From positions 9,858,001 through 9,922,000 of the forward strand of contig AP026543.1 of NCBI GenBank assembly GCA_026075535.2: a stretch of DNA of 64,000 nucleotides, in the 5' to 3' direction. Every line of letters begins with the position of its first letter. Positions within the stretch are counted from its first letter, which is position 1. A program made the translations under genes and the position numbers. Positions 35,461 through 63,249 of the stretch are shown here, piece after piece. The notes under the pieces are model-generated. The model was not told the DNA's origin. It saw only the letters and a list, made by a program, of their open reading frames with translations, and did not search any database. The DNA comes from Tricholoma matsutake (taxonomy: Eukaryota; Basidiomycota; Agaricomycetes; Agaricales; Tricholomataceae).

Positions 35461-35470
35461 AGAGTTTTCT
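35461..35470 (-). promoter_or_regulatory. Self-priming type primer-binding site, element A
   Basis: Two bases beyond the 5' LTR the sense strand reads AGAAAACTCT. Its exact complement AGAGTTTTCT is inside the LTR. This is the arrangement used by Tf1-like elements, where the RNA 5' end primes its own reverse transcription; no tRNA match was needed. Confidence 0.6.
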
Positions 35471-35472
35471 AC

Positions 35473-38974: not shown

Positions 38975-39268
38975 GGGTGAGGAATATCTTCTGTAATTTA
39001 CACTCCCCCACCTAGTCCATTCAGAGTCCCAGCTGTCTGAGCAGAATGGTAGGAATCCACATGGAATCCTAGCAAAGTCCAAGCTCAGTCCAAGTTGTCC
39101 ACATGGAATGCTCAGACTACTTTAATCATCCAAGTTAGACTGAATTCCAAGTGAATTTTACACCAATTTCCAAGTGAAGTCTGAGTACAGTCCAAGCACA
39201 GTCCAAGCAACTGTCAACTTAGTGAATTTTTGACTAAGTCCCCAAGAAAAGATGAATGTAAATAACCA

Positions 39269-39335
39269 GATTTGAACCCTCAGCCTCACAACTTTCTTCA
39301 TGTGACCATAAACATTTATACCACTCTGCCAGAAT
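39269..39335 (-). ncRNA. tRNA-like Pol III module, left end of e2
   Basis: Minus strand: A box TGGCAGAGTGGT (39331-39320) and B box GGTTCAAATCT (39279-39269), about 40 bp apart, with TTTTC some 20 bp further on. It fits Pol III internal promoter consensus well but does not fold as a full tRNA that I can assign. Confidence 0.6.
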
Positions 39336-39908
39336 GGCAGTGGTAGTTTACATCATTAATGTTATTTATTAGCTATTTACAAATTACATGTAAATAAAAA
39401 AATAAATCACTGTTGCTGGAAATGAGCAACAGGAATATGGACAGTAAGAAAAGCCCCCCTATTGTAGAGGGGGGCAGCTACCAAATATGAACAGGGCAAG
39501 GCGGCAGGTGCATAGCGCATTTTGCCTACCCCTCCCATTGTGGTGGTAGGGTGTGCTCTTGTTGTTCTTGTCCCTTCCCCCTGCCCCTGCCCCTCAGTTG
39601 TTGTTGTTTTTCTACCTGGGTCATTCCTGCTGTCCCTGTCCCCTTGTTCTCTGTGGTGTCATTTCCATCATCCGTAGCACCCGTAGTCCACCCTGTGAGC
39701 AGTTGCTCAAAGCAGTGGGGGCAGGTGCTGGGCCATCTGTTGTTGGCATTGGCATGTTGTTCATTGTCATTCTCCTCGCATTCTCCTTGTCATTGGCTTT
39801 CCTGTGTCTTGCATGCTGTCCCCACCCCCCTTGTTGTCCTCGTCTGGTCCCTGGAAAAGCTTTTTAGTAACAAAAAAATGAAATGAAAGAGAAAAAAAAC
39901 TCACAGAT

Positions 39909-39939
39909 GCCCAAGAGATGTTGATGTCATCTCTTGGGC
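39909..39939 (+). repeat. Central hairpin of e2
   Basis: GCCCAAGAGATG and CATCTCTTGGGC form a perfect 12-bp stem with a 7-nt loop, followed by a run of seven T. Its counterpart in e3 has compensating stem changes. Confidence 0.8.
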
Positions 39940-40539
39940 CCTTTTTTTGGGTTTCCTTGCCGTTGCCCCCCCCATCCCATTGTTGTTGTCCTCCCCAGCT
40001 GTCATCATTGTCACATTTGTTGTTTTCCATTCATCATCATGCCCTCATTGTTCGTGCCCTCATTGCCTCCCCCTGTCCTCGTTGTTCCCGCCCTGTTGTT
40101 GTCTTTCTTGCCTCGTCATTGCTCTGGCCCTGTGTTGCCTGGCCCCCATGGGTGTCATTCCCATTATGTGCATTTTCCTTGTGGTTCACTTGTGGTTTGT
40201 CATGCTGCAATCCACCCTGTGAGCAGGGGCCCACAGCGGTGGTGTAATGGGGTTGGGAGTGGGGCGTTTTGGCCTGGGGACTGTCTTACAAGATGTTTAT
40301 TACCTAGAAAAGAATAAAAAACAGTTAGTTAGTAAAATGAAACAAAGAAGAAATAAGAAAAAAACTTATCTAGGGTGCAATTGTGAAGTGTAGGCAGCAG
40401 TAGAGGGAGGTAGCAGTGTTGAGAGTGGTGGTGGTGGTTGGGTGATGAGCTGGCAACATTGATGATGCAGCTGTGTGCTTTGTCATACACAGCCACCAGG
40501 AGTACTACGTAGGGGATTGATGTGGGTGGGCTAAGTATG

Positions 40540-40606
40540 GCTCTGTGGTGTAATGGTTAAGTGCTGCATTACTTAGGACCAAGGGGTTGAGTGTTCAATT
40601 CTTGCT
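40540..40606 (+). ncRNA. tRNA-like Pol III module, right end of e2
   Basis: A-box-like TGTGGTGTAATGGTTAA (40544-40560), B-box-like GTGTTCAATTC (40591-40601), then TTTT near 40618. It faces outward toward the right end. Confidence 0.55.
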
Positions 40607-40889
40607 CATGACAATTATTTTACTATTAAATGTAGTAGGGCTCAGACTGCTCATTCTTGTCCTAGCATTCCATGTAATTCTGTGCAGAGTCTGGACAGAT
40701 TCCTAACTGGAAATTCCGAGTCCTAGCTCTCTGCTAGGCTTCTGCGTGGACTGAACTTGGACTCAGCTTGGACTTGGAATGGAAATTTGGCTGGATTTTC
40801 TGCCAGTAAACTTCCTAGCTCAGTCCAAACGGAGTCCTAGGAATCCAAGCATTCCATTTGGGTTAGGTGGGGGAGTGTAAAGTACTCAA

Positions 40890-42190
40890 TATCTTCACCA
40901 GAACAGCACATAAACCTCAAGAGGGACCACTGTGCATCCCCCTCAAGGCAAGTCTTCCAACATGATGATTTCATGGGAGCACCAGTTGATGAGGCAATAA
41001 TCAAGCAAACAAAAAAACCTGGGAAACAAGAAACACTACAAAACCAACACCCACTCACCCAGGAAGGGAACAAGAGACACACAAAGGGAGAATGTGCTAT
41101 GTGGTGAATGGCTAATTGTCTGAAGGAAAAGAAGTCTAGAGCAGGTCAAACATCAGCAAAGCACAAAAGGTTAGAGATGCCACTGTGGAAAGAAACACAA
41201 CCATAACTAATGAACTAGTTCTGAAAGGACCAAAATTTGATGGCACACCCTTCATCATCACCACTGACGGTTGCAATTACATGCTGTCACAAAGTCACAC
41301 TATGGTCTTACTGAATGGAAAAGACATCACACATATACATCTGGTTGCATTTGGCAGCAAATGAACATCCAAAACAGAAGAGAAGTACAAACCATATTTG
41401 CTGGAATTTGCTGCACTGAAGTTCTCCCTAGATAAACTCTCTGACCTCATATGGGGCTGCCCAGTTGAGCTGGAAACAGACTGTCAGGCACTCAGAGACC
41501 ATCTACTAAATGACAAGCTTAACTCCACCCCCACATTTGTTGGAGGGATGGCATACTGGCACACCAGATTGTGGATGTACAACACAGACCTGGCCACCTG
41601 AACCCCATTGCAAACAGTATCAGCAGGAAGTAAGTGAATCTACCCACAGAAGAAAATGATGGTCATGAGTGGACAGTAAGTGAAGATTGGGAAGCACACT
41701 GGCATTCAGAACAACATATTCCAAATTGAACCGCTACCCACCCATGATGCTCTGAAAGCCCAATTTGCCAACAAAAAAATATTCCTGAATGTCATAGAAG
41801 CACTGACTGAACTAGATCATGGTAAATGTGTTAAAGAATGGAAGAGAGCCAAGCACTGAGCAGAAGGATACATGATCCAAGATGGCAAACTTTGGAAGAT
41901 AGGAGATACCAAATCCACATGGGCAAAACAACAGGTAGAGTGTGTACCACAATTGGAGGCAGTCACATTAGCATGGGAAATCCACCAGAATCAAGGACAT
42001 TTTCACTGGGACAATGTAAAAATTGCACTAATGGACAAGATAGCTAGCCAACACCTATACTGGTCAATCACCAAGGTGATCATGGATTGTGATAAGTGGA
42101 AAGGACATGGCCCCAAACACTTACATTCACTACTACAGCCCAGAACATGGTGGCACCTATTTGAACTGCTCGTGGGGGACACACTGTCCA
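40890..42190 (+). pseudogene. Gypsy RNase H / integrase fragment (gypsy D, right piece)
   Basis: Plus-strand blocks: GPKFDGTPFIITTDGCNYML (near 41230; RNase H start, with frames broken), EFAALKFSLDKLSDLIWGCP with ELETDCQALRDHLLNDKLNS (41405-41530), and an integrase zinc-binding region IHQNQGHFHWDNVKIALMDK...DCDKWKGHGPKHLHSL (41980-42135). It stops at FELLVGDTLS (about 42190), the normal start of the integrase core. There, element e4 begins. RT is missing between this and the protease piece, so the copy suffered an internal deletion as well as insertions. Confidence 0.65.
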
Positions 42191-42197
42191 CTCTTCA

Positions 42198-42540
42198 CAC
42201 TCCCCCACCTTTCCTGGTGGACTCTGACTGGAGTCTGATCAGACTGACCAGAATCCAACTGGAGTCCAACTGGAGTCCACTGGGACTGGTCACCAGCCAA
42301 CTGCCTGCAAAGTTGCCAGTCCAGTCCCAGTCCAGTCCAACTGGATTCCACTCAGACTGGTCCAGTGGTGTCCAGTGGTGTCCACTGGAGTGAGTCTGGT
42401 TGGAGTCCAGTCAGATTCCGCTGAAAAAGTGTGTAAAAAAGGGAATTGAACCCAGAGCCCTGTGTATTATGCTTACATAAGCAACCCACAATATAACCCC
42501 AACCTTCTGCCCAATGAGAGTATTTGATGCCTGAAATGTT
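42198..42540. mobile_element. e4: left-end fragment of the same TIR family
   Basis: CACTCCCCCACC at 42198, then GGAGTCC/AGTCCAACTGG subterminal repeats to about 42420, then a tRNA-like module. No matching right end found, so it is truncated. It interrupts the gypsy D integrase right after VGDTLS. Confidence 0.55.
42441..42516 (-). ncRNA. tRNA-like Pol III module in e4
   Basis: Minus strand: A-box-like TGGGCAGAAGGTTGGGG (42513-42497), perfect B box GGGTTCAATTCCC (42453-42441), directly followed by a long T run (Pol III terminator-like). Confidence 0.6.
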
Positions 42541-42999
42541 ACCAGGATGGTAAGACATGTAACCTGTCTATTGAATAACCATGTTTGAGCTCCAGATCAA
42601 AGCCAAGGAGTGCTGCCCTGACATTTGCCAAGTATGTTGTGTCCACCAGTGCAAGAAGTGCTGAGATCATCCTCTTGGCCCCACCTTCTGCATATGATGC
42701 CATGTTCAATGTTGGTAGAACAGGGGGTGGGGATGTTGAAGATAATGGACAATGTGCTGAAGATAATGAACCAATGGAATGGGACAGATCTTCCAGCAAC
42801 CAAATAAAGGCAAACAATCACTTGGCTAGTGCAGTACAATGTTGGATAGGCTGACTTATTGGTTTGCTGTCTGCAACAATATCCCTCTATTTGTTTTGCC
42901 AGAGGATTGGGTCCCATGCGGGTGGACAACAGTATGTACAGTGTTGTTGTTTTTACTTAACATACTTACCATTCAATTTGTGATTAGGAGGATCAACAT
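42541..42999. other. No gene recognised
   Basis: Short overlapping frames on both strands with no features. It possibly includes the 5' region of the gene at 43000. Confidence 0.4.
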
Positions 43000-44271
43000 A
43001 TGTATAACCGTGCAAGGACCCAAGATTTCTTAGATCCAACTGCACCGATGCCAGATGGATTGGAAGTCCAGAATCCTGTGCGAGACTACAAGCCATCCAA
43101 ATGCTTGAAAGTTAAATGCTTGCGTATTGAAATTGATTCCTCTTCAGTTGGTTTAGACAAGTCTTCATCGAGCGACCCTCCCATTTCAACTGTTCCAAAC
43201 ATTGGTCCATCAACTGGAGTATCACGCGACGCATTCGTTATACTGCTACCAGTTTGTCAACCAGCAGTACTGATTGACACAGAAATAAATGAAAGACCAC
43301 CCTTGCCAACTCATTCCACTTGTCCTGTTATTTTACCATCTCGCCACCTGTGCAGGGCGATCACACCTCCACAATTCTATGTGCTGCTCGAAACTGAGCT
43401 ACTCCACCCATTGACATGCCTCTGCAATCCCCATTTGCTGTCAAGGAAGAACGACTGACAAATGAAGATGTTGGCTGGGAAGGTCGCATTCATTTCAAAA
43501 GTCTGATCATGGAGGAAACACGTCTATGCATTCAAATTAATTGTACTGCAAAAATGGGATCGAAGTATCTTCCAGTTCAGAAGATGAACAAGTTGCCACT
43601 CCACCCTTCCACAGGATCGAGTGGCAGTACTCCTCTCGTTGTTCCCACTCTTTCTGTTGCACCACCACCCATCCCTCCTCCATCCACCGGCCCACCCACC
43701 CACATGCAGGCTCATGTCACAACATCATTAAGTTCTGCTCCTCCTCCCAATGCATCACCTCTCTCCTCCCCAATGCCGCCATTCCCACCAACCCCACCAA
43801 CACCCCAAGCATTGGGATTGCCCAAATGGCCTGTCAGCCACCCACAATCACCACCATCTGATAGTGAAGGTGATGCAGAGGAGATTGGTAGGGAAGCATT
43901 GGGTAGGATGGAGGAGGTTGACTGAAATGAGAGGGAGATGGAGGTTGATGTCCCTCCTGTGGCCCTGGAATCATTGGCAGTAATCCCCATGAGCTTTCTG
44001 CATGCGGAGATGGAGGATTCTATGGACACTGATGTGAAGGCTAAGGAGGTGCTGGATGGATGGAAGATGAAGTACGAGGTGCTCTTGTCAGAGGTGGAGA
44101 ACATTGGAGGAAAAAATGATGGTCCTTCACGGCAACAGCATAGAAAAACATGACTCCTGTCACAGGTGCTGCAAGCTCAAATGCTGATTGGAACCAGCAT
44201 TGATTTAATGAAGGATTGCCTCCAGAAACTTGAGGCAGATGGTCAATCAGTGGACTCAAATCTAATAGAAT
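43000..44271 (+). pseudogene. Unrecognised Pro-rich / coiled-coil gene with two TGA stops
   Basis: A first frame (43000-43458) opens MYNRARTQDFLDPTAPMPDG; a second (43416 on) carries a Pro-rich region (SVAPPPIPPPSTGPP, PMPPFPPTPPTPQALGLPKW) and an acidic SDSEGDAEEIG patch. That second frame then continues in the same phase through TGA at 43923 (VD*NEREMEVDVPP) and TGA at about 44151 (RKT*LLSQVLQAQM). It ends in a Leu-rich helix (IDLMKDCLQKLEADGQSV) at 44271. Both stops are consistent with CGA to TGA. Its organisation parallels the Cys/coil cargo gene at 6229-8032 (Pro/Ser-rich middle, helical end), so it may be a relic of another transposon's cargo. Confidence 0.5.
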
Positions 44272-44299
44272 AAAGACTATTTGTAACATTATATATTCA

Positions 44300-44840
44300 T
44301 TAAGAGCTTAATCAAGGGAACTAAACAGGATAATATTGGTGGTATGAACCAGCCATTCTGGAATCCTTGTAAACACACCCATTCCAAAAAGCTTTCTATT
44401 GCATAACCCCACCCAGACAGAAAGGCTCTTTGAGCTCCATGTTCTCATCCATTCTGACACCATCCAGTGCATCTGTCTTGAATCAATCTGTTCCATATTC
44501 TCTCCCATTATGTAGCCTCACCCTTTCAGAAATGCAATCCATTTGATAATCATGCTCATTCTGTAATTCTATCCATTCCATATCCCCACCCATTCTAAAC
44601 CATTATCTGCTCTGTATTCCCACCCATTCTGTCTTTTTACCTGTTCTCCCATCAATCCCATCATTCTGAAAAGCTATCTGTCCCGTTCCATTGTCCAACC
44701 CACTCTGTTGTCCAACCCATTCTGTAATTAATGTCACCATAAATCTATTCTGTTTATCAGATCCATTCCATCATTTGTTCCGTTCTGTCATTCATCCCGT
44801 TCCATTCTGTCATCTGACCTGTTCTGTCATCAGCAACACA
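44300..44840 (+). repeat. Degenerate CCATTCTG-type simple repeat
   Basis: Dozens of imperfect CCATTCTG/ATTCTGTCATC words, densest at 44440-44830. No coding. Confidence 0.75.
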
Positions 44841-44879
44841 TGCACATCAATGTAGTTTCATTATCTGGTGGAACAACAT

Positions 44880-45130
44880 GTTGAACACCAGTGAATGGTC
44901 TAATATACCCTTGCAGCACCCATGGGCCCATCCACCATTAATGGTCTAATGTAACCTACCTAATAGCACCATGGGCCCACCCACCATTCATGGTCTAGTG
45001 AATGATGGCATGCATCCCATAGGCCTACCCATCATATATGGTCTCCTGCACACTGGGACACAGCTCATAGGCCCACTCTATTTGAATGAGACTTATGCTC
45101 AAGATGAGCCCATCCTTGTAACATGAGCTA
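44880..45130 (+). repeat. Degenerate GGGCCCA-containing repeats
   Basis: Four to five copies of a roughly 55-70 bp unit (CATGGGCCCACCCACCATT...ATGGTCTA). Unrelated to genes. Confidence 0.7.
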
Positions 45131-45216
45131 GGACAATCCATGGGCCCATGTTAGCTGGATCATCACCAATGGCCAAATACCACCATCCCATATATATGGG
45201 GCTAAAGTCACTGAGA

Positions 45217-45410
45217 GGAGTTGTCAGAAAGGGTACTCTGCCTCTAAATATAAAACTCTCAACATGCACAAATGTGATAGAAAGGAAAATTAGTAATAAA
45301 ATAAGGAAAATCATAGAAAATGAAGAATAGAAGGAAATGAAGTGAGGAAAAATATAGGATGAATGTAAAAAATAGGAGAAACACATGGGGCACCCCCTAG
45401 TCCCCTTACA
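45217..45410 (-). repeat. Partial, diverged LTR related to elements A and B
   Basis: Aligns to the U3-side half of the A/B LTR in element A orientation (shared CCTCTAAATATAAAA, AATCATAGAAAAT and CCTAGTCCCCTTACA at its end), clearly older by divergence. The rest of the LTR is missing. Confidence 0.85.
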
Positions 45411-46049
45411 GAGTCTGCATTTACAATGGATGAAATCAAAGCAGATAAAACAAATGGCCTTGACAAACTTGAAGATCTTCTCTCAGAACTGGGCATCCAT
45501 GACATGAATGACATCTGGAATAAAGACAGAGCATGGCTCACCCTATCTAACAGAAAACAATGTCATAAGTCTTCTGCTGTCAAGTTCCTGCTCTGCTCTG
45601 AGGATGGGTTGAAGTCAACTGATCGTCTTGCTAGGATCCATGGGCTAACAAAGATTCACACATGTTCACAACACCCTCCTACGATACTTTGACAGATGAC
45701 TCACTCATTGATGACCACTTTCTCCTCAATCAACTTGTTGCAATGTTCATCTGAGTCAATAACCATGCTGCATTGGCAATTGTTTGTGTTACCGCCATGG
45801 AAAATAAGATGAAGGAGGCTGTTTCCACAATTCCAATTTCTGCCCTCTCTTCAGAGAAAGGGTTGTTTCATGGCCAGGTTCTTTCACTTTTAAGGGGGGA
45901 TTCATGGACATCATGGCTTTGGAGGCATGAAAACTTTGAATCCTTCAATTCTAGTGATGGTCAGATAACAAAGAAGTCATCATTCATCGAAGTTCCTGCA
46001 GTTCATAGTACATGGTCAGTTAAGGGTGAACTCTATTCTCAGGCAGTGG
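45411..46049 (+). other. Unassigned open frames between the partial LTR and element B
   Basis: Plus frames 45426-45692 (MDEIKADKTNGLDKLEDL...) and 45773-46049 (ending at the element B LTR) have coding-like composition. They may be the relic of the gene into which the elements inserted. No family recognised. Confidence 0.35.
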
Positions 46050-46474
46050 TGTAAGGGGACTAGGGGGGTGCCCTGTGTGTTTTTCCTATTTTTTATGTTC
46101 ATCCCATATTTTTCCCCACCTCATTTCCTTCTATTCTTCATTTTCTATGATTTTTCCGGATTTTATTACTAATTTCCCTTGCTATCATGTTTGTATATGT
46201 TGACACTTTTATATTTAGAGGCGGAGTACCCCTTCCGACACATACCCCTTGGTATGATGTCATTCGGCGGCCTTGATCCGCCTATCTCCGCCTTTTTCTA
46301 TTTTTAGGTTATATTTGATTTTTGTCGTCTTCACATATACTGGGCATCAGCAAGGGGATCCTTAGAGTTTTCTCTTCGGATTTCCCTTTGCTAGGTGCGC
46401 CCCCAATCCCTGTATTATGTAGCATAATTTTAACTTCGGATTTCCCTTTGCTAGAGGCTTAGGTTGCCCTTATA
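46050..46474 (+). repeat. Element B 5' LTR
   Basis: 425 bp. Differs from the 3' LTR by eye at, for example, AGGGGGG/AAGGGGG, TTCATCC/TTCGTCC, CTTCATT/CTTTATT, a T-run length, AATCCC/AATGCC and AGCATAA/AGTATAA. Confidence 0.92.
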
Positions 46475-46476
46475 GT

Positions 46477-46486
46477 AGAAAACTCT
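46477..46486 (+). promoter_or_regulatory. Self-priming type primer-binding site, element B
   Basis: AGAAAACTCT two bases after the LTR complements AGAGTTTTCT at 46364-46373 in the LTR, which would place the transcript start near 46364 if Tf1-like self-priming applies. Confidence 0.6.
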
Positions 46487-46640
46487 CCCCTAAGGCCCGA
46501 AAATCGCGAACGCGCTGCCCAAGATAGGCAGGTACGGACTGGACGACGCTTCCCAAAGCTCCACAGAGTCCCTACACACCGTTCCAGATACTCTCACCTT
46601 TATTACGCCGCCATTTTCGCCAAACGCGCTCCCTAGCGAC

Positions 46641-47639
46641 ATGGACACATCAGAATGCTTCGATGCGCTTGAAAGCGACGTTTCCGGAATGCGCGCGCAA
46701 ATCGACTCGCTTAAATCTACGATTGAAAACTTCGTTAGGACCCTCCAGGCTAACCCTACGACCAATAGTTCCCCCTTTACGACTCCAAGCGCACCCAACA
46801 ATGACGTTTCGCCAAACGCGTCCACTAAGGAACGTGCCCAGATCAAACCGTCCCCCCCTGCCGAATTTAATGGTGCACGTGCGCAGGGACATGCATTCCT
46901 TAATTCCTGTGAGCTATACATTAGTCTCCAGTCGCATCAATTCGTCGATGAGGCTGCAAAAATTTATTGGGCCTTCACATACATGAAATCTGAACGCGCC
47001 TATCTCTATGTGGACCGTATCCTATGTCAAACTAAAGAACTCGGTTCTCTACCTTTCTCCACTTGGGGTGACTTTCGAGCTGAGTTCATACGCCACTTCT
47101 GCCCCCTCAATGAATGCCACCGAGCAGTGACACGACTTGAGTCATCCGCTTACCACCAGGGACGTCGATCCGTGGACGACTATATCGATGAGTTCAAGGA
47201 TTTGGTGGACATGGCAGGATATGGGAGTGGGTTACCAGTGGTGGTGAAGTTCCGACGGGGGCTCAACCGAGAAATTCAGGACCAGATTGCACAGATGTTG
47301 GAAGGGCGCCCAGCGGACGATGATATCCTTGCTTGGTATGAAGCTGCTTCACTCTGTGATGAGAACCGACTCACAAATGCGGCATTTAATGCTGCATTCC
47401 GTGCTCCAACTACCACTCATACACCCTACACCTTCAATCGAAGCCTTCCCCGCCCTAACCCCATTCCTGTTCGTCAAACTCCCACACCAGCCATCAATGT
47501 CCCAGTACCAATGGATGTTGATGCAGCCCGCAGCCGTGCACGTAAGTTGGATCTCTGCTACCATTGTGGGGAACCTGGACACAGGGCTGGAGTGTGTCCC
47601 CATCGTCAGGATATCCGCATGCTCACCCCCGAGGGATGA
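46641..47639 (+). pseudogene. gag: Element B Gag, prematurely stopped
   Basis: 332 residues from MDTSECFDALESD. Colinear with element A Gag, including the capsid block and CYHCGEPGHRAGVCPH knuckle, but ends at TGA (47637-47639) where A has CGA. The frame continues open after the stop up to the pol overlap at about 47759. About 18 amino-acid differences from A are visible, mostly explained by C/T or G/A changes at CpG in one copy or the other. The stop would block frameshift-dependent Pol synthesis. Confidence 0.9.
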
Positions 47640-47764
47640 GATGAACTCCTGCAAGATTTGTTGGCGCTTGTAGATGTTGAGGAAGCAAAGGATCAAGTTG
47701 CAGAGGAGGTTAAGCTGGAAGTTGTAGAGGAGCAGGATTTTCCTATTCACAGCGAGTGAATCGT

Positions 47765-50700
47765 ATGCCCTCACTGCCTGTCCATAACCGCTTTGAAGTC
47801 TTGTCAGTTGAATCCCTGGAGAATGAATCCATTTCTGTGACTGCTCCCCTCTCTGACCCTTTGAAGTTGGCTAAAGACGTACCTGCTCTCCCCATCTCTC
47901 CTTCTACTCCACATCCCAAAATTAAATCATGGGAGCGTAAACTACCACGCAAGTATATTGTGGCATCCACTCCCTCTGCACATTCCTTAAACCTAGCCAT
48001 CGAACTGCAGATGACCGACACTGGACAGATACTCGGTGTCTCTGCGCTCCTGGACTCTGGTGCGACTGGTCTCTTCATCAATTCCCATCTGGTACAACAA
48101 CATCGTCTAAATACTCGCTCACTCTCACGTCCGATACCTGTATATAATGTGGATGGATCCCCAAATGAAGCTGGTGCCATCCGAGAGGTTGCAGACCTGG
48201 TTCTCCATTACAAAGATCATAGTGAGCATGCCCTTTTTGCTGTCACTCAATTAGGAAAGCAAAAGGTGATTTTGGGATATCCATGGCTTCGAGACCATAA
48301 CCCGGAGGTCGACTGGCGCACCAGGGAGGTTACCATGAGCCGATGTCCATCCCGCTGTCGGACGTGTTTCACAGAAGCCAGGCAAGAACGTCGTGGACAG
48401 AAGGCGGCAATACGACGAACTCAGAAGTGTTGTGCTGGACCCCTGCCTATACCTGAAGTGGAATTGGAAGGGGTTCCTGATCTAATGCCGGACTCGGATG
48501 ATGATGATGAGGACCCAGAGGAAGTGGAGGAGGGTGATCGGATCTTCTACACTGCGATTCGCTCATCGCATGAGGTGTGTGCCACATCGAACATATCCCA
48601 ACGCCTTGCCGAGGCCTTCCACAAAAACAACGCTGCTAAATCCTCTACTAACTCCTTACTCCCTCATCTCCATGAGTTTGAAGACGTGTTCTCCAAGGAG
48701 TCATTCGACTCTCTTCCTGCGCGTAAGCCATGGGATCACGCGATCGAACTCACCCCCGGCGCAACCCCTTCATCCTGCAAGGTCTATCCTCTCTCTCCAG
48801 AGGAACAACGGCAGCTTGACCAGTTCATCGACGAGCACCTGGCCTCTGGACGTATTCGACCATCGAAGTCACCCATGGCCTCTCCCTTTTTCTTTGTCAA
48901 GAAGAAGGATGGCTCACTTCTACCGGTTCAAGACTACAGAAGACTCAACAACATCACGGTCAAAAATCGCTACCCACTACCCCTCATCTCCGAACTCGTA
49001 AACCAGCTCTGTGGAGCCCGATACTTCACCAAGCTCGATGTCCGTTGGGGCTATAATAATGTGAGGATAAAGGAGGGAGATGAGTGGAAGGCAGCCTTTC
49101 GTACCAACCGTGGTCTTTTTGAACCGCTTGTCATGTTCTTTGGCCTTACTAATAGCCCTGCCACCTTTCAGACCATGATGAACGACATCTTCCATGACCT
49201 CATCCTCGAAGGCGTTGTCTGCATCTATCTCGATGACATCCTCATCTTCACTCGCACGGTTGAAGAGCACCGTCGCATCACGCGCCTCGTCCTAGAGCGA
49301 CTTCGATGGTACAAACTCTACCTTCGTCAGGACAAATGCGAGTTCGAAAGGACCAAGATCGAGTACCTCGGCCTGATTATCTCGGAGGGTCAAGTGGAGA
49401 TGGATCCTATCAAGGTAAATGGGGTCACAGCTTGGCCTACGCCCACGAACAAGAAGGAGGTGCAGTCTTTCCTGGGCTTCATCAATTTTTATCGGCGTTT
49501 TATCAAGGATTTCTCACATCATGCACGACCGCTGTTCGACTTGACAGGAAAGGAGGCATGGAGGTGGGATAATGCACAACAGGAGGCATTCGAAAAGCTT
49601 AAGGAGATGGTCACTTCCGCTCCGATCCTTACCTTTGCTGACGATTCGCGTCCTTTTCGTGTAGAAGCCGACAGTTCTGACTTTGCGACGGGCGCTGTGT
49701 TGTCTCAGCAGTCTCCGGAGGACCAGAAGTGGCATCCTGTTGCGTTCTACTCCAAAAGCCTTAGTGCTGTAGAGAGAAACTACGAGATCCATGACAAGGA
49801 GATGTTGGCGATAATGCGTGCGCTTGAGGAGTGGCGACACTTCCTCGAGGGTGCCCAACACAAGGTGGAAATTTGGACAGATCACAAGAACCTCGAGTAC
49901 TTCATGACGGCCAAGAAATTGAACCGTCGTCAAGCTCGTTGGTCCCTGTATCTATCTAGATTCGACTTCTCCTTGCACCACCGTCTGGGTCGCAGCATGG
50001 GGAAGACCGATGCCCTATCCCGACGTGCAGACCATGGGGATGGCAGCGGTGACAACCAAAACATTGTGCTGTTGCAGCCAGACCTGTTCACCATTTGGGC
50101 ACTGGAAGGCATCGTACCCCAGGGCGAGGAGCGGGACATTCTACGTGACATTCGTCGCGCAAACCGTAGCGGTTTACATGAGGATGTTGTCGCCCGAGCT
50201 GTTAAAGAACTGAGGAAGGGATCGACCCTTTCCTTACGTGCGGCAGAGTGGGCTGAAAAGGAGGACTTGTTGTATTTCAGGGATCGCATCTATGTTCCCA
50301 ATGACCCAGACCTTCGCCGGCGCATCCTATCCCAACACCATGACTCACAGATTGCTGGCCACCCCGGACGCTGGAAGACCTTGGAGCTCACCTCACGGAA
50401 CTATTGGTGGCCACAAATGTCACGGCTCATTGGTCAGTATTGTCGCACTTGTGACCTTTGCTTACGCACCAAGGTCCCTCATCGCAAGCCTATTGGTGAG
50501 CTACACCCTCTTCCTGTTCCAGAGAGTTGTTGGGATGTCGTCAGCGTCGACTTTGTGGTGGAATTGCCAGAGTCAAACAGGTTTGATGTGGTGATGTGCA
50601 CAGTTGACTCAGTGGGAAAACGCGCTCACTTCATCCCCACTCACACCACTGTCAGTGCCCTAGGTGCCGCTCGACTCTACCTCCACCACGTGTGGAAGTT

Positions 50701-51658
50701 ACATGGACTTCCTGGTGCCTTCCTCTCGGATCGTGGCCCTCAGTTCATGGCAGAGTTCACTCGTGAGCTGTACCGACTCCTGGGGATCAAACTCCTCGCT
50801 TCAACTGCTTATCACCCACAAACTGATGGCCAGACGGAGCGAGTCAACCAGGAACTGGAGCAGTACATCCGCCTCTTTGTCAATGAACGCCAGGACGATT
50901 GGGATGATCTCCTTCCTTTGGCCGAGTTCGGATACAACAACCATGTCCATGCTTCCACTCAACAGACCCCTTTCCTCTTAGACACTGGACGACATCCACG
51001 CATGGGATTTGAACCTCGCCAAACTCCCTCACACATCGAGACAGTGAATGAGTTCACAGAACGCATGAGGGATAGCTTGGAGGAGGCAAGGGCAGCCTTA
51101 GCAAAGGCGAAGGACGACATGGCGCAATTTTACAACCAGCGCCACTCCCCAACCCCTCAGTACAAGGTTGGTGATCGAGTTTATCTTGACTCCAGTGACA
51201 TCTCCACTACACGTCCATCCAAGAAACTCGCTCATCGCTTCTTGGGACCTTTCCCCATTGTCAAGTGCGTTGGAACACATGCCTATCGTCTACGCCTCCC
51301 AGCCTCCATGTCCAGACTCCATCCCGTCTTCCATGTTGTCAAATTGCTTCCAGCTCCCCCAGATCCATTCCCGGGACGCCATTCACACCCACCACCACCA
51401 CCTACAGTGATCGAGGGAGAACCCCAATATGAAGTCGAGTCAATCTTGGACAGCCGTTTGCGTCGAGGAAAACTCCAGTATTTGGTACATTGGAAGGGTT
51501 ATGGGTATGAGGAGAACTCATGGGTCGAAGAGTCTGACGTAAATGCCCCTCGGTTAATCAAGGAATTCCACCGACGGCACACTGCTGCACCGCGTCGCAT
51601 TCAAGTCACGGACTTTGGTCGTATACGATTTCGAATGCATCGGGGCGATGCATCTTAG
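47765..51658 (+). CDS. pol: Element B Pol polyprotein with chromodomain
   Basis: Open throughout, starting at the ATG at 47765 (the frame opens at a GTG at 47756). Domain order and motifs are as in element A Pol. Only four amino-acid differences from A are visible over 1,300 positions (Pro/Leu near residue 21, Thr/Met near 86, and two Cys/Arg differences near residues 1179 and 1207). Between about 48013 and 51291 I found no difference. Without a full-length Gag frame upstream, expression is doubtful, but the protein itself could act if made. Confidence 0.93.
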   Translation: MPSLPVHNRFEVLSVESLENESISVTAPLSDPLKLAKDVPALPISPSTPHPKIKSWERKLPRKYIVASTPSAHSLNLAIELQMTDTGQILGVSALLDSGATGLFINSHLVQQHRLNTRSLSRPIPVYNVDGSPNEAGAIREVADLVLHYKDHSEHALFAVTQLGKQKVILGYPWLRDHNPEVDWRTREVTMSRCPSRCRTCFTEARQERRGQKAAIRRTQKCCAGPLPIPEVELEGVPDLMPDSDDDDEDPEEVEEGDRIFYTAIRSSHEVCATSNISQRLAEAFHKNNAAKSSTNSLLPHLHEFEDVFSKESFDSLPARKPWDHAIELTPGATPSSCKVYPLSPEEQRQLDQFIDEHLASGRIRPSKSPMASPFFFVKKKDGSLLPVQDYRRLNNITVKNRYPLPLISELVNQLCGARYFTKLDVRWGYNNVRIKEGDEWKAAFRTNRGLFEPLVMFFGLTNSPATFQTMMNDIFHDLILEGVVCIYLDDILIFTRTVEEHRRITRLVLERLRWYKLYLRQDKCEFERTKIEYLGLIISEGQVEMDPIKVNGVTAWPTPTNKKEVQSFLGFINFYRRFIKDFSHHARPLFDLTGKEAWRWDNAQQEAFEKLKEMVTSAPILTFADDSRPFRVEADSSDFATGAVLSQQSPEDQKWHPVAFYSKSLSAVERNYEIHDKEMLAIMRALEEWRHFLEGAQHKVEIWTDHKNLEYFMTAKKLNRRQARWSLYLSRFDFSLHHRLGRSMGKTDALSRRADHGDGSGDNQNIVLLQPDLFTIWALEGIVPQGEERDILRDIRRANRSGLHEDVVARAVKELRKGSTLSLRAAEWAEKEDLLYFRDRIYVPNDPDLRRRILSQHHDSQIAGHPGRWKTLELTSRNYWWPQMSRLIGQYCRTCDLCLRTKVPHRKPIGELHPLPVPESCWDVVSVDFVVELPESNRFDVVMCTVDSVGKRAHFIPTHTTVSALGAARLYLHHVWKLHGLPGAFLSDRGPQFMAEFTRELYRLLGIKLLASTAYHPQTDGQTERVNQELEQYIRLFVNERQDDWDDLLPLAEFGYNNHVHASTQQTPFLLDTGRHPRMGFEPRQTPSHIETVNEFTERMRDSLEEARAALAKAKDDMAQFYNQRHSPTPQYKVGDRVYLDSSDISTTRPSKKLAHRFLGPFPIVKCVGTHAYRLRLPASMSRLHPVFHVVKLLPAPPDPFPGRHSHPPPPPTVIEGEPQYEVESILDSRLRRGKLQYLVHWKGYGYEENSWVEESDVNAPRLIKEFHRRHTAAPRRIQVTDFGRIRFRMHRGDAS

Positions 51659-51669
51659 AGAGGGGGTGA

Positions 51670-52095
51670 TGTAAGGGGACTAAGGGGGTGCCCTGTGTGT
51701 TTTTCCTATTTTTTATGTTCGTCCCATATTTTTCCCCACCTCATTTCCTTCTATTCTTTATTTTCTATGATTTTTCCGGATTTTATTACTAATTTTCCCT
51801 TGCTATCATGTTTGTATATGTTGACACTTTTATATTTAGAGGCGGAGTACCCCTTCCGACACATACCCCTTGGTATGATGTCATTCGGCGGCCTTGATCC
51901 GCCTATCTCCGCCTTTTTCTATTTTTAGGTTATATTTGATTTTTGTCGTCTTCACATATACTGGGCATCAGCAAGGGGATCCTTAGAGTTTTCTCTTCGG
52001 ATTTCCCTTTGCTAGGTGCGCCCCCAATGCCTGTATTATGTAGTATAATTTTAACTTCGGATTTCCCTTTGCTAGAGGCTTAGGTTGCCCTTATA
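51670..52095 (+). repeat. Element B 3' LTR
   Basis: 426 bp, closer to the element A LTRs than to its own 5' LTR. Preceded by the purine tract AGAGAGGGGG (about 51656-51665). Confidence 0.92.
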
Positions 52096-55137: not shown

Positions 55138-55453
55138 GCCAGGTTGTTGTGGTTGTTGCTTGTGTGCAGTGGTGGTGGTGGTTTGAATACTACCATTGAG
55201 AAAAAGATTTCAACTTCCACCATGACACAACTCACTTCAGTTGTTGCCTGTATTCCTTCAATCACTTCTAATTAGTACACAATTTGCTGTGTGTGCTACT
55301 CCATGACGTCATCGTCACTCTCTTTGGCAGATCCTGCCATTTCTTGATGTCCATCAGCATCAAGTACCCATCCAATGCAGTGAGTTCATTGCAATGCATG
55401 AGGGGTTCCCATGTGGAATCCCCCATGTTCCACTTCACAAGGAACTCAATGGT

Positions 55454-56535: not shown

Positions 56536-57225
56536 ACAGAGTCCACGGTATGCTGTGGTCTGAATTGGCCCACCACTTGGTGGGCTTGTTCAAGTATCCT
56601 CAAATGCAGTGTCGTGTTGTTCGAGTTCGTATTTGGGATGCATGCTATGTCCTCCCCACCTTTATTTTTGGCCCAAATGAACCTGTCACACTCTCTGAAT
56701 GTGGGGTGTATTGTTATCTTTTCCTTCAATTTCTTAAACCAAGGATCTGTGAGGTATCCCTCACAAATACTATCCTCAAATGTATCCATATGAGATAGTG
56801 CCATATGATGATCTGTTCCTTTTGCTCTTGACTCAAAGATCATGGGGTCCTCCTCCATTTGTCCACCATCTGGTGGATCCTTAGGTTCTTCCATACTGGC
56901 AGCCATATTTGCTGCTAATGCATCCTGTTCTTGGATGCATTCTCTCAGTGCTCATATTTCTGTGACCACCTTGGCAGAGTTCATCCTTCGAACTCTTGAC
57001 TCAATGATGCCCTCTTCAACTTCAAAGAGTCTCTCCCATGGGAGATCATCATGTTCTGGATCCAAGCAAATGTCTGTGTTCACATAGTCATGTAACTCTG
57101 GCACCTCTGTCCAGTAGTCATGCTCATAGTATCACAATAGTGCATCCACTACCTTATTCAAGGTTCCTTTGATGTACCTGATGTCGAAGTCGAATTGGGT
57201 AAGGTAGTCCATTCACCTCATCTGC

Positions 57226-58700
57226 CTACTGGAAAGACATGGCTGCATCTTGAAGAACTCCAGGGCCTTGTGATCTGTCACCACATGGATTTGATACCCT
57301 AGGAGTTTGTCCTCCCATTTCAGGAGGGCTTCCAGTATAACCAGTGTTTTGTGTTTGAACACTCAGCAGTTCCACTGGGTGTCTGTGAACTTTTGAGACA
57401 TGAACCCTGCTGGGCGACATGTCTGCCAAGTTTCACCTTGTCCATACATGGTGCCTACGCCATAGATGGATGTGTTGCATATGACCCATATGGGTTCATC
57501 CTTCATAGGATTGATAGGACATAATATAGGTGTCTGACAGCAGATGTATTTTATCATCTGAAAGCACTTTTCCTGCAGCGGTTTCCAGTAGAATGTTGTT
57601 CCATTCACCGTCATACCAGCCAATGGGCCAGTATATGCCATAATATCTGGTAAGAAATGATCTAGATATTGTACAAGGCCTAAAAACCTCTGTACGTCGT
57701 TGAAGTTATGGGGTCTATTCCACTCCTGTATCTTTGCCATCCATGTGGAGGCCTTTTTTGTCTATCATGTGTCCAGGGCATTCCACCTTGTCTGCATATA
57801 GTTCACACTTCTCCCATTTGAGATAGAACTTGTGTTCCCATAGACATGCAAACACCAATCCCAGATGTCTCTGGTGCTCCTGCACTGATTGACTAAAGAT
57901 GAATATGTTGTCCAGTTAAACATGTAGGAATATGCCTATGAATTCCCAGAATATTGTGTTCATCACATGTTGAAACATCGATGGGGCATTGCAATCGCCC
58001 TGTTGCATAACATTGCTCATGAATGTGCCATAGATCATTGGGAACATGGTCTTATGCACATCATCTGGGACTATGCATATCTGTTCATCTGCATCTGACA
58101 AATTAATCTTAGAATGTATTTACTCTGGCCACATCGAGATGAATAACATCTTGTTCTGGTAAAGGTGTCACATCCTTCACCATATTATCATTCCACTGTC
58201 ACCCATCAATGACAGTTCTCAGCTTATTCATCTTTTTCCTGACACAGAACATAGGTGCTGCTTGTTCAGCCTGAGCCTGTTCCCACCATCCCACATGCAT
58301 ATAATGTGTGATTTTTTCCGCAAGCTTGGGCTTCAATGAGTCTGGGCAATGTGGATTGTGGTACTTGTACCTCTTCTCCTCATCAACCAGTGGTATTCGA
58401 TGGTTGATGTCTCAAAGAGGCAGCAGCTTTTCCAGTGCTCCTCATGATGTCTTCACAGGACTTCATCCATTCCTCGCATAAACAAGGAATGTCCTTCTCC
58501 ATTAATGACCCCTTTTTGGTTCATTTTGTTCAACTGTCCATCCATCACCGCCATCAGGACTCTGTTCATCCTGTTGGTGTTCCCTGCTTCTCACCTGGTA
58601 ATTCTGGGAGGAAATACCTTTCTCCCCTTCTTTTCAAGGCAAACACCTCGAAAATTTGTGGATGATTTCATTCACTTCCTTCATCTCATCTAACAGTTGC
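57226..58700 (-). pseudogene. Gypsy C reverse transcriptase / RNase H region
   Basis: QGDCNAPSMFQHVMNTIFWE (about 57990-57930), followed by FIGIFLHV with the catalytic YxDD site replaced by a broken frame, then FLGLVQYLDHFLPDIMAYTG (about 57690) and FYWKPLQEKCFQMIKY with PIWVICNTSIYGVGTMYGQG (about 57510-57440, RNase H start). Upstream 58100-58700 holds fragments of the RT N-terminal part only. Many stops. Confidence 0.65.
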
Positions 58701-58923
58701 TTTGGATCCTTTGTACTACTGTTGAAGGTAGCTGCCTGTTCAACCATCCTTTTGACATCATCTATCATGATGTCATCTCCGGGTCCCAACAAAACTGGAA
58801 ATGGTAAAGAAAGTCCTTTCCCAGATTGATGTTCATCCTCATCAATCTCCTCCTCGACAATCGGTATACACTTCTTATCTGGTGGTTTTTGATCCTAGGT
58901 GCAGTGTTCTCGCTGCATTCCAG

Positions 58924-59709
58924 TCATTCATTGGTGCCATTCGGTGTCCCCACCTTCTTGACAGGTTCTTTTATCCCCTGCCTGTCTTCCCAGAACCTCA
59001 TGGCTTGCCTGTGTACCAATAGGTATGCATCTGGGCTCTCCTGTAATGCCAGGAGCACTTCTTTCTTATGTCTAATTTTGTTCTTATTGAAATCTAGCAT
59101 GATACCATGCTTTCTCATAAACACCATTCCTAAGATTGCATCATATCTATCGATATTCACTATATCAAAATAGTGTTTCTTGTCTATGTGCCCATATTTT
59201 ATGCACACTTTTGTACCATAATTTATTTTTGCTTGACTTCCCCTTATCCCCAACTGCACTGGGACTTGTTCAGTCAATTCATAGACCTTTAGGTCTGCGA
59301 TGTGTACAAACTCTGGTGATACTGCATCCATGGTACACCCCGAGTCCAGCAGCGCTACCACTACTTGCCTGTTCAGTTTCACCATTATGATGAAGCTCTT
59401 TGCTTCATGCTTCAGCCATACTGGTCTGTCCAGTACTTTGCTGGACTTCCTTATCTTAGTCAACAATCTTTCATCTACTATCTTCTTTACCTTTGGTGGG
59501 GGTAATTCCTCCCCCATTTTTAAGGCTGCAATCAGCACCTTCAGTTCATAGACAATTTCATCATGTTCATCAGAGTCAGAAAATTCTGATGACTCTTCAT
59601 CATTATCTCCCCATCTTCCTTCTTCATCTGTATCATCATCAAATGTGACGTCTTCATCACTATCCAATACTTCTACCAATAGAGGAAGGTCCTCTTCCTC
59701 TGATGACAA
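58924..59709 (-). pseudogene. Gypsy C retropepsin region
   Basis: 261-residue open block: acidic start (MSSEEEDLPLLVEVLDSDED), then FIIMVKLNRQVVVALLDSGC with the DSG catalytic triplet and TMDAVSPEFV, then YFDIVNIDRYDAILGMVFMR, the typical second half of a retropepsin. It ends at VKKVGTPNGTNE. The domain itself is intact, but its neighbours are broken. Confidence 0.7.
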
Positions 59710-59758
59710 GTCATTTGTCTCCTCAAACTCCCAACTATCCCTGTCAATGAGGTTCTCC

Positions 59759-61112
59759 TCATCTAATTATGTTTGGAGTGCACACATGGATGACTTCTCT
59801 TGCTGCATACATCTGAGTGGACATACCTTTGCCTTTCTTCTCAGATGGACATTTCTTGTCTTTGGCCATGTGGCCAATTTCCCCACAATTGAAACATTTC
59901 TTTGCTCCCGCAGAAATATTCCTTCTAGTGGTTCCCATTGTTTTAACGGGTTCTTTCGCTTTTGATGTTGAAGGTTCCATTCTCATTGGCTGGTCTGGCT
60001 TGCTCTGTACCCTTTGGTATGTCTCCTTCTGTTGGCCATTACTTCCCAATGCTCTTTGTTGGCTGTCCTGTCATTCAACAGGCTTTTGATATTCGTTATC
60101 GCCATATGGTTTTTGCATGGTGTTCTCTCTAGTGGCGTATTTCATCACTCTTATTGTTCTTTGTTCATTCCAATAACAGGATGTCTGTATGGTGATTTCT
60201 TCTGCCTTTCTCATGTGGTGGAGTATGGATTCCATCTTGGAATACTCTGGCATCATGTCTCTACTGAGCAAATGCTCAAAGATTTTCCTTGGAAGCCTCA
60301 TTATGTAGTGCTTCTTGAACATATACCTATCAGGTGGTCTCACCATCTGATCCACGTATCTAGTCAGTCGATGGTAGAATGCCATGACTCCTTCATTTGG
60401 GGCATATGTTGCACTCCAGAAGTTATCTGTCACTACCCCTAAGGGAGTGTTGTGTATAAAACAGCCATACAGCCCAGTTATTACCATTGTGACTTGTTGA
60501 TGGTCCATGCCATTGACATTGTCAATATACCATGTCAAGGCAGTCCATTGAAGGAATATGGCCATGCATCTATGCATTCTGAGTCCATTTCTGGTCCGCA
60601 GAACTGGTTTATGCAAAACCAGCTGAGGAGGCTTACTAGCCACCTCTCGAACACCTCGATGTCATCTTCGCCTTTGTATGCCTTAGGCTCTGGTACCTTT
60701 GGTGGGTTTGTTTGATTATGGTTGACCCTTTCAATATCACCCTTAGATGTTTCATAGGTAGAGGTGCTCCTCTACCTTTATATGCATCTAGTTCCAAGGT
60801 TGACACCCATATATATGGGGTATTATAGGCCAATGTCTGAGGTGTGTCCCTCAGTTCTGTGCTATATCCAAATGGATGGGGTTGCCTCCCTTCTGCATCT
60901 TCTTCTTCATCAGTGGGCAGTCCACTTCCATCATCACTGCTATCCAATAGATCCCCATCATTCCCACCTCTACCTTGACCTCCTGGTCCATTCCCAGGTG
61001 GTCTCTTGGGCAGTTCTCCTCCAGATCCCTCTCTTTTAATAGTCTCACCTCTCTTACCTGCCTGATCCTTCGTCCTTACCACTAACTGGTGGTATACTCT
61101 CCCTCTTGAGCG
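59759..61112 (-). pseudogene. Gypsy C Gag region with CCHC knuckle
   Basis: 61082-60636 has an acidic/Gly-rich N-terminal part and a helical segment. 60643-60071 includes YGCFIHNTPLGVVTDNFWSA and GVMAFYHRLTRYVDQMV, a capsid-like region. 60049-59759 holds CFNCGEIGHMAKDKKCP (zinc knuckle). Frames shift at each junction. Confidence 0.65.
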
Positions 61113-61398
61113 AGGTCTTTACACTGCCCCATATGTTCTGCATGGATCCGTGTGGAATTACATGGACTCTGCATGGACTCCACACAGATTTGCAATCCAT
61201 ACAATAAACCATCTTAGCTGTGCAACAGGGTGTGCCAGTCTGCATGGATCCATGCAGACTAACATGGATTCTGTGGATTTTACTTGGATTCTGCAGATTT
61301 TGTCCATCCGCATCCGTGATCAACCAGGTCAGACCAGCAAGGACAGTCCGCATGCATCCAAGCAGACCATTTGAGCTTAGCAAAATAATGTCATGAAT

Positions 61399-61472
61399 GG
61401 TGTTTGAACTCGTGGCCTCATGGTTAACTAATAAAGTACAGATGCACATTACCATTACACTATGCAGCCAGT
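61399..61472 (-). ncRNA. tRNA-like Pol III module, left end of e3
   Basis: Minus strand: A-box-like TGCATAGTGTAATGGTAA (61467-61450), B-box-like GAGTTCAAACACC (61411-61399), then TTTT about 18 bp on. Confidence 0.5.
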
Positions 61473-62588
61473 GGTATGTTGTCACTATTGATGCAACTAC
61501 ATATGACTGTTTGGCTTTGTATGACAAAGCACACAGCCACATCATCAGTGTTGCCAGCTCATCACTCACCACCACCACCATTGACATCGCCACCTCCCCC
61601 CCTCTACTCTACCACCTCCACCACTGCATGCACACCTGCCACCACCATTCCCACACCCACTCCACCATCACCACCACCTTCAAATGAGCCCGAGTAGATG
61701 GAACACGGGCCCAAATGACACCAACTGTTGTTTGGGCCATAGATAAGTTTTTTTCTCTCTTCTTTTTGTTGTTATTAACTAACTCATTGTATTTTATTAA
61801 TTTTTAGGCTGTACACTAATGGTGACAACTGCCAAACACAAAAAATGCACAACGCGCACCCATGGCCACCCAATACCCCTCCTCCCCATTCAAATGGGAT
61901 GTGAGGCTGTCGACATGGGCTAGGACAGTGTAAAGTGACGCCGGGAGACCCCAGAAGGGGGATACCCACCTGGTATGCACCCACCTACCCCCTCCTCGCA
62001 TGCCATGGCCCTACATAAGTTTTTTCATTTGCTTTTTGTTTATATAAACTAACTAACTCATTTCTTTTGTTTTATAGGTTCTACTCTACTGGTAATGATG
62101 GCCCAATGCAAGACAACCCAACACACCCACCCCACACCTATGAGCCCCTGCTCGTAGGGTGGATCGTGAGTGTGTGCAGCCAACGACGACAACGACGCCA
62201 CTGCCTACCAGCACCAACACCCCCAGAACACAAAGTACGGCCGCCAACCATGATGGACAATGATGACAGGGCCAATGACACACCACCCACCTCCAGCCCA
62301 TGAGCCACTGCTCAGGGGGTGGACTGCGGGTGGAATGGCAATGACGACGAGGTGAACACACAGCAGGAAGCACAACAAGGAGCACCAAGGGACACAGGAT
62401 GATGGGAATGACACAGCAACAGCAACCATGCAGGACAACAGGGACCATGATGGCAACAGCAGCAACAGACAAAAGCCACCCAGGACAACCCCCAGCAGGA
62501 CGACACAACCAGGTAGATGCACCAACCATGACACACCAACCACGGCACCCAGGACGGTGCACCAAGGGCAGCTGGGGCCACAGAAAAG

Positions 62589-62621
62589 GGCCCAAGGGAC
62601 ATCATTGACGTCCCTTGGGCC
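62589..62621 (+). repeat. Central hairpin of e3
   Basis: GGCCCAAGGGAC and GTCCCTTGGGCC form a perfect 12-bp stem with a 9-nt loop, followed shortly by a 14-nt T run. Homologous to 39909-39939 with paired substitutions. Confidence 0.8.
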
Positions 62622-62994
62622 AGAGGTTTTTTTTTTTTTTTCTTATTTCTTTTACCACAGAAATGCATGCAGGACAATGGGCACCACAATGAGACACCAC
62701 CAGGCCACCCCTCCCCTGCATTTTGCATGGGGAGGGTTTGTTTTTTGTTTTCTATACCCCCTCACTCGCATTTTATGTGGGTGAGGGGATTTTCTTTTTG
62801 ATTTTTAATTGTCACCTTCCCCTCGCATTCAATATGAGGGGTTTTAAATATAATTATAGTACTCTTTAGTTAATATTATTTGATTTTAAATATATAACAA
62901 TGCACCTCCTTCAAGAGGGTTTAAATAATTGAGTTTGAGTTTGAGTTTTGAGTGTCATAAATAAACTTTATATTAGCAACAAATAATTCTCCTG

Positions 62995-63062
62995 TGGCTC
63001 AACTGGTTAAACATACTTGTTTGTTATGTGAAGTTAGCATGAGGTCTTAAGTTTGATCCTTG
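62995..63062 (+). ncRNA. tRNA-like Pol III module, right end of e3
   Basis: A box TGGCTCAACTGG (62995-63006, good consensus), B-box-like AGTTTGATCCT (63050-63060), then TTTT near 63076. Confidence 0.6.
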
Positions 63063-63249
63063 CTCTGCACAATCTTATTTTGTAGGCACTTCATGACTTT
63101 CATACAGTCTGAGAAGCTTGGAACTCGTGAGATATTAACTTGATAACATGAATTCTGGGCGGACTTGCCCGGATTCTGCATAGTCCATGTGGAGTCTGCA
63201 TAGTCTGTACGGATCCATGCGGAACATATGGGGGAGTGTAAATTACTGT

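Follow-up and report, generated by a model that had tools for sequence, protein, structure and literature searches.

The stretch of DNA analysed here, which we call the window, comprises 64,000 nucleotides of contig AP026543.1 of Tricholoma matsutake and holds three members of a set of transposon-like elements, e2, e3 and e4, with outward-facing modules near their ends that resemble the promoters of tRNA genes. e2 (38991..40887, + strand) is a complete non-autonomous element of the terminal inverted repeat (TIR) kind, 1897 bp long, with one type of end, the C-end, on its left and another, the G-end, on its right. e3 (61112..63248, + strand) is also a complete non-autonomous TIR element, of 2137 bp, in which the G-end is on the left and the C-end on the right. 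Both are bordered on each side by a target site duplication (TSD) of 8 bp. e4 (42198..42500, + strand) is a solitary damaged G-end of the CCTTTCC subfamily, with its outer 10 bp not intact. The first-pass annotation of the window had given e2 and e3 shared termini with TA flanks; the shared TIR ends were found as described, but the boundary was misplaced and the TA duplication did not stand. The true termini lie 10 bp outside CACTCCCCCA, the TA beside this string is part of the terminal repeat, and the duplication has 8 bp. For e2 it reads AATATCTT (38983..38990 and 40888..40895), the C-end terminus being CTGTAATTTACACTCCCCCA (38991..39010, + strand) and the G-end terminus GAGTACTTTACACTCCCCCA (40868..40887, - strand). 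For e3 it reads TCTTGAGC (61104..61111 and 63249..63256), with the G-end terminus GAGGTCTTTACACTGCCCCA (61112..61131, + strand) and the C-end terminus CAGTAATTTACACTCCCCCA (63229..63248, - strand).

The boundaries were obtained by comparison of both ends in copies fetched from the genome (loci numbered with L below). The C-end opens with C[A/T]GTAATTTACACTCCCCCA (C[A/T]GTAAT...) and the G-end with GAG[GTC or TAC]TTTACACTCCCCCA, and the C-end/G-end pair is bordered by an 8-bp direct duplication. Elements of this kind were sought by rule, as a terminus pair plus an 8-bp duplication in which one mismatch was allowed, the pairs tried not being counted, and 20 TSD-bearing elements were found in the fetched loci, 14 with exact duplications and 6 with one mismatch; most of the loci had been picked by similarity to e2 or e3 and do not represent a random sample. 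At one locus (L064) two members of the set are nested (235-3804 and 549-2195), each with its own 8-bp duplication carrying one mismatch. Empty sites were found for both complete elements of the window. The flanks of e3 plus one TSD copy had matches spanning the junction at 14 places elsewhere, with 85-94% identity and with target spans that came within 11 bases of that of the query. The flanks of e2 joined in the same way had one such match, with 78% identity; none of these places was inspected base by base. Considering that the flanks are matched across the junction elsewhere, both e2 and e3 have inserted into repeated DNA. The two elements had also been credited with related cores, and in this respect the window self-comparison at 1e-8 yielded one piece of 70 bp with 91% identity and nothing else longer than 60 bp.

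Both ends of e2 and both ends of e3 hold an A-box/B-box pair that reads outward, followed by a TTTT that begins 14-17 bp past the B box; the order A box, B box and T run of type-2 promoters of RNA polymerase III (Pol III) was thus present at four of four ends, as had been proposed. At the C-end of e2 the A box TGGCAGAGTGG (39321..39331), the B box GGTTCAAATCT (39268..39278) and the TTTT (39247..39250) are all on the - strand, and at its G-end the A box TGGTGTAATGG (40546..40556), the B box TGTTCAATTCT (40592..40602) and the TTTT (40618..40621) are on the + strand. The G-end of e3 has its A box TAGTGTAATGG at 61452..61462, its B box AGTTCAAACAC at 61400..61410 and its TTTT at 61382..61385 (- strand). 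The module of the e3 C-end, on the + strand, is preceded by an AT-rich, TATA-like stretch (ATAAATA, TTTATATTA, 62957..62975) which is largely common to seven C-end types; its A box is TGGCTCAACTGG (62995..63006), its B box, AGTTTGATCCT (63050..63060), has three changes from GGTTCRANNCC, and its TTTT is at 63078..63081. The same layout had been attributed to e4, where it holds in part: the B box GGTTCAATTCC (42442..42452, - strand) and the T6 run (42435..42440, - strand) are homologous to the family module, but the A box region has been rearranged. Between the B and A boxes (window 42460-42500), some 22 bp of the linker are the reverse complement of the family linker, the family A box is degenerate, and the A-box-like TGGGCAGAAGG at 42503-42513 is out of alignment with it.

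The earlier count of five ends out of five with this layout has therefore to be read as four full and one partial, and its claim that the layout exceeds chance was borne out. For the calculation, the A box was scored as TRGYNNARN(0-2)GG (8 informative positions) and the B box as GGTTCRANNCC (9 positions) at a tRNA-like distance, with a maximum of 17; of 20 fetched genome hits of a tRNA model, 19 scored 17 and one 16. The 30 terminal 12-mers that come first along the genome were taken without regard to modules, and 600 bp inside each terminus were scored, together with control stretches from the outside flank (60) and the deeper interior (60), two strands each. A score of at least 16 was reached outward in 13/30, inward in 0/30, in 0/60 outside flanks and 0/60 deeper interiors, and in 3/150 dinucleotide shuffles. 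At a score of at least 15 the figures were 20/30 outward, 4/30 inward, 1/60, 1/60 and 11/150, respectively; one of these 20 outward cases (L053) lies in subterminal repeats and appears spurious. Among the 10 ends below 15, as judged by eye, a module can be recognised in two (L028 and L032), and the rest have interrupting sequence or none. The offset between A and B boxes was 46-64 bp at most module-bearing ends.

The two end types carry modules of different kinds. This was seen in a census of 101 distinct ends from the window and the fetched loci, most of which were picked by similarity to e2, e3 or e4. Of 36 C-type termini, 22 had a C-type A box (TGGCTCAA or TGGCAGAG), none a G-type one and 14 neither. 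Of 58 G-type termini, 49 had a G-type A box (T[A/G]GTGTAATGG (T[A/G/T]GTG[T/C]A), TAGCTCAGTGG or close variants), 8 had neither, and the single one with a C-type A box (L003) has altered outer bases. The remaining 7 of the 101 termini were of neither type. Some ends scored as neither hold a good box pair of another kind, such as TGGTGGAGTGG in L041 and TGGTTTAAGTGG in L051. By reading of the boxes, a module could be recognised at each end in 13 of the 20 TSD-bearing elements; the modules are usual, not obligatory.

The set is dispersed through a genome that was assembled from telomere to telomere (TMA_r1.1; 161,040,721 bases in 13 contigs) and consists of 71.6% repeats, according to PMC10211490, whose repeat table gives 13 SINE (short interspersed nuclear element) copies and 2342 "small RNA" repeats that make up 1.94 Mb. 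A search for further copies, which the first-pass annotation had recommended, found the terminal 12-mer TACACTCCCCCA at 1270 places genome-wide against 121 for the reversed pattern used as control. Used as genome queries, e2, e3 and the e4 end gave 84, 120 and 49 matching pieces, respectively, self included; a copy may give several pieces, and only the best candidates were scored. The terminal 18-mer had 0 matches in viral contigs, and one match of the terminal 12-mer in the window, at 17441, is isolated and has no module.

Exact module words of 16 and 19 bases were found genome-wide at 660 places for the C-type module and at 198 places for the G-type module (of the e4 type), with 0 for the control. 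Their position relative to the termini was analysed on contig C1 up to 11.64 Mb, where the terminal places had been listed. Of the G words, 20/22 sit 117-508 bp inside an exact terminus and face outward, and none is oriented the wrong way. Among the 58 C words, 4 are at an exact terminus of their own and 20 have, 0.8-6 kb upstream, an exact terminus of the other type that faces them (against 1, 3 and 3 in three control layouts), which gives 23 with either or both. Eight of the 35 remaining C words were read, of which seven are followed at about 240-320 bp by a terminus with one mismatch and one is disrupted; 27 were left unread. The modules have A and B boxes in tRNA-like order, as tRNA-derived SINEs do, but a module that inserts as a SINE unit of its own was rejected, given that the copies tested were bound to a terminus. 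Independent SINE insertions at variable positions, which the first-pass annotation had named as evidence that would refute its claim, were not what these places held. The proposal of two SINEs mobilised head to head as one unit also failed, inasmuch as the two end modules differ and nearly all tested copies are in terminus context. The view of a TIR transposon-like family whose ends regularly bear outward modules resembling tRNA-type Pol III promoters was upheld.

It was also considered whether the modules are functional tRNA genes. A tRNA model had been suggested for them, and its outcome was negative: ARAGORN called 0 tRNA genes in the window and in L001-L074, L098 and L099, while it called 19/20 of the host tRNA-model hits, and two Rfam scans covering e2, e4 and e3 gave no tRNA match at E<=10. 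In all, Rfam listed 21 matches at E<=10, none of them up to the gathering score of its family. With no cloverleaf by either program, the idea of functional tRNA genes was rejected. RNAalifold on seven divergent C modules gave -3.3 kcal/mol and no cloverleaf, and 2/18 pairs were changed on both sides. A separate dispersed repeat does carry at its 3' end a tRNA-Ile(UAU)-like gene, intact according to ARAGORN (L095 and L096 share 217 bp with 98.6% identity, and L097 has just the tRNA part in common with them). ARAGORN assigned 16/20 of the fetched host tRNA-model hits to tRNA-Ile(UAU), more places of equal score being unread, and the tRNA-Ile repeats that were read have no CACTCCCCCA end.

The elements have the termini and the constant-length target duplication of non-autonomous TIR DNA transposons. 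No autonomous copy with the same ends was found, and a six-frame Pfam scan of one element of 4.4 kb (L059) gave no family at E<=0.1. The longest e2-type copy (L055), with no TSD in its listed ends by eye, contains a Tnp2-like open reading frame (ORF), which was rejected as the transposase as it belongs to a separate high-copy family; this family, e.g. C2:6097530-6098522, has 126 matches, many of about 95% identity, and its ORF is barely matched by any Pfam model (Plavaka, E 0.023). Tnp2-like places had no association with outward modules, within incomplete module lists. Two long terminus pairs on contig C1 were discarded as autonomous copies: the one of 9.9 kb (L098) holds a separate TSD-bearing element of 3.3 kb (40-3299), and the one of 6.3 kb (L099) has no TSD. 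Their ORFs are retrotransposon-like by eye, no family search having been made. KDZ and hAT transposases are abundant in the genome. Around 80 KDZ places on contigs C1-C6, 4 outward and 4 inward module neighbours lay within 10 kb (2.47 expected each), and around 72 hAT places on the same contigs the figures were 0 and 3 (1.6 expected each); these counts rest on G words of C1-C6 and C words of C1 alone, and a rare autonomous copy could escape them.

By comparison with known classes, the 8-bp TSD agrees with KDZ (Zisupton/Dileera) and hAT. In Kojima 2025 (PMC12730594), EnSpm and Plavaka have a TSD of 2-3 bp and a CAC/TGT/CATCA terminus, and Zisupton/Dileera have 8 bp. The matsutake elements share with EnSpm/CACTA and Plavaka a CAC string near the end and the Tnp2-like ORF inside one copy, but their TSD has 8 bp, the terminus lies 10 bp further out than the CAC string and the termini read C[AT]G.../GAG..., and membership in those families was rejected. 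KDZ and hAT share the TSD length, yet the matsutake G-end lacks a CA start, and no association of either transposase with outward modules was found within the incomplete module lists. With MITEs (miniature inverted-repeat transposable elements) and other non-autonomous TIR transposons the elements share TIR-like termini, a constant TSD, hundreds of copies and the lack of coding capacity in the copy scanned; they differ in their asymmetric ends and in the outward Pol III promoter-like modules at both of them. tRNA-derived SINEs such as AfuSINE2 of Aspergillus fumigatus (PMC5063351) likewise have an A box and a B box and are tRNA-related, whereas the matsutake modules are ends of DNA transposons, usually two per element, with no free-standing copy among those tested. 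MER6, a mammalian Tc1/mariner MITE that captured a V-SINE, is also a DNA transposon with SINE-related sequence; according to PMC6887750, its insert is internal and excludes the tRNA-related head, in contrast with the promoter-like modules that the matsutake elements have at each end.

Pol III promoters are known within SINEs and some LTR (long terminal repeat) elements. Cassandra TRIMs (terminal-repeat retrotransposons in miniature) have a Pol III-type promoter sequence within the repeat, and the fission-yeast IR-L/IR-R elements and tRNA-gene (tDNA) barriers place such sequence at the two edges of a silenced domain; unlike the matsutake elements, none of these are TIR DNA transposons. Among open-licence papers we found no account of Pol III modules at the ends of DNA transposons, nor of such promoters as a regular pair in TIR elements.

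The anatomy is real, genome-wide and regular: it comprises the termini, the TSD, the outward orientation, two module types, their occurrence next to a terminus in the copies tested and, at C-ends, boxes that are the best conserved part between subfamilies. From it we infer a tRNA origin of the modules, binding of TFIIIC, transcription and a benefit to the element. In the explanation that we favour, whose chances we regard as evenly balanced, e2, e3 and e4 would be non-autonomous TIR transposons with a putative Pol III/TFIIIC docking module at each edge, kept for the benefit it brings. They would belong to a large diversified set moved by a transposase that leaves the 8-bp duplication. On the most economical view, an ancestor would have acquired two tRNA-derived promoters, one near each end and unlike each other, and most of its descendants would have retained both; the ancestral unit at each end would have been a type-2 A box, a B box and a short T run, preceded at C-ends by the AT-rich stretch. 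Both units would face outward, the T run being placed before the terminus, and their retention would be due to the recruitment of TFIIIC/Pol III to both edges. The likeliest benefit may be an edge that is open and poor in nucleosomes, or else a barrier like that of tDNAs, by which the termini would be accessible and the interior spared spreading silencing, and short Pol III transcripts of about 100 nt would be a product or a by-product. A further step, which we put forward tentatively and think doubtful, is that the paired outward non-identical promoters are selected and act as barriers or landing sites, that Pol III/TFIIIC takes part in the life cycle of the element, and that this is a new anatomical class of TIR element. 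If the modules work, a DNA transposon would use TFIIIC to insulate its ends or hold them open, and the hundreds of copies scattered over a genome with 71.6% repeats (PMC10211490) could shape its chromatin.

The two-module layout looks old and retained. Between subfamilies, invariant columns cluster in the boxes: they were 17/23 in boxes versus 16/71 elsewhere among seven divergent C-end types, and columns in which six or more of the seven G-end types agree were 16/22 versus 8/63, counts in which box conservation is inflated by representatives partly picked by box motif. Over the A and B boxes and the sequence between them, pairwise identity at C-ends was 0.65-0.86; it was 0.69-0.75 up to and including the T run and about 0.55 beyond, and the AT-rich stretch (ATAAATA..TTTATATTA) is largely common 28-38 bp before the A box. 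This distance fits a fungal Pol III TATA loosely at best. At G-ends, identity was 0.70 in the A-box window, 0.71 in the last B-box window, 0.53 in the linker and about 0.5 downstream. Within subfamilies, where 72 of the 101 ends were recruited on similarity, divergence from the majority base, excluding 8 loci chosen by A-box word, was 72/1594 in boxes, 194/2985 in linkers and 276/5960 in flanks. Boxes diverge less than the linker (p 0.006; outside CpG-like sites 23/1002 versus 92/1869, p 0.0004), and a calculation with the 8 loci included gave the same picture. Most of these within-subfamily changes are decay after insertion, and the comparison has low power.

Besides the inflated column counts, several observations weigh against modules kept for a benefit. 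Within subfamilies the boxes do not diverge less than the flanks (p 0.89, or p 0.18 when CpG-like sites are set aside). Six of the 20 TSD-bearing elements are without a full module at one end at least (both elements of L064, L066, L067, L073 and L074), and in one more (L098) the B box of the C-end is degenerate; the modules are therefore not strictly needed in cis for insertion. The most conserved part of the G-ends between subfamilies is a block that precedes the module by 60-160 bp (identity 0.65-0.77), and therefore other interior sequence is also kept. Lastly, e2 and e3 have T runs of just T4, which may terminate poorly in fungi. The 7/20 elements, the box divergence relative to flanks and the degraded e3 C-end B box and e4 A box would all be natural under the main rival, in which the ancestor captured tRNA-derived sequence near each end and the modules were carried along as functionless relics. 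We judge this rival conceivable though rather unlikely; it is at odds with the linkers being more divergent than the boxes, with an outward module at each end type, different in kind, and with the clustering of invariant columns in the boxes of both end types, subject to the selection bias noted.

Another possibility is that the boxes are subterminal sites for the element's own transposase and resemble tRNA promoter boxes by accident. Subterminal repeated motifs are usual in such TIR elements, and by eye GGANTCC-like repeated motifs fill these regions; nevertheless, the tRNA-type order and spacing of the boxes are kept, with the A-B offset of 46-64 bp at most module ends, each of the four e2/e3 ends has a T run past the pair, and from one end to another the A boxes vary in the way expected of different tRNAs, which leaves this reading improbable. 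That the Pol III RNA is itself the functional product, regulatory or decoy, draws on the right order of A box, B box and T run and on the abundance of the exact module words (660 and 198). A MITE using Pol III transcripts, an alternative in the first-pass annotation, is conceivable. Set against a functional RNA are the weak fold with few pairs changed on both sides, the missing ARAGORN cloverleaf and the linker as the most divergent part within subfamilies, and we hold it to be quite improbable; the lack of a conserved RNA fold fits a promoter rather than an RNA product. Very improbable, finally, are two independent SINE insertions of opposite orientation caught by chance between TIRs: the modules do look tRNA-derived, like SINE heads, but they differ between end types, their orientation is fixed and they are terminus-bound in the copies tested.

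Other features were noted in and around the elements. The core of e2 has a second exact TGGTGTAATGG at window 40240-40250. An internal near-perfect hairpin with the stem CCCAAGRGA...TCYCTTGGG lies beside a T run in e3 (62588-62635) and in e2 (about 39909-39950), and the hairpin plus T run could possibly be another transcript end. Two LTR elements, Ty3/gypsy-like by eye and 99.2% identical, lie in opposite orientation about 10 kb apart, at window 29852-35899 and 46049-52095, either side of e2 and e4.

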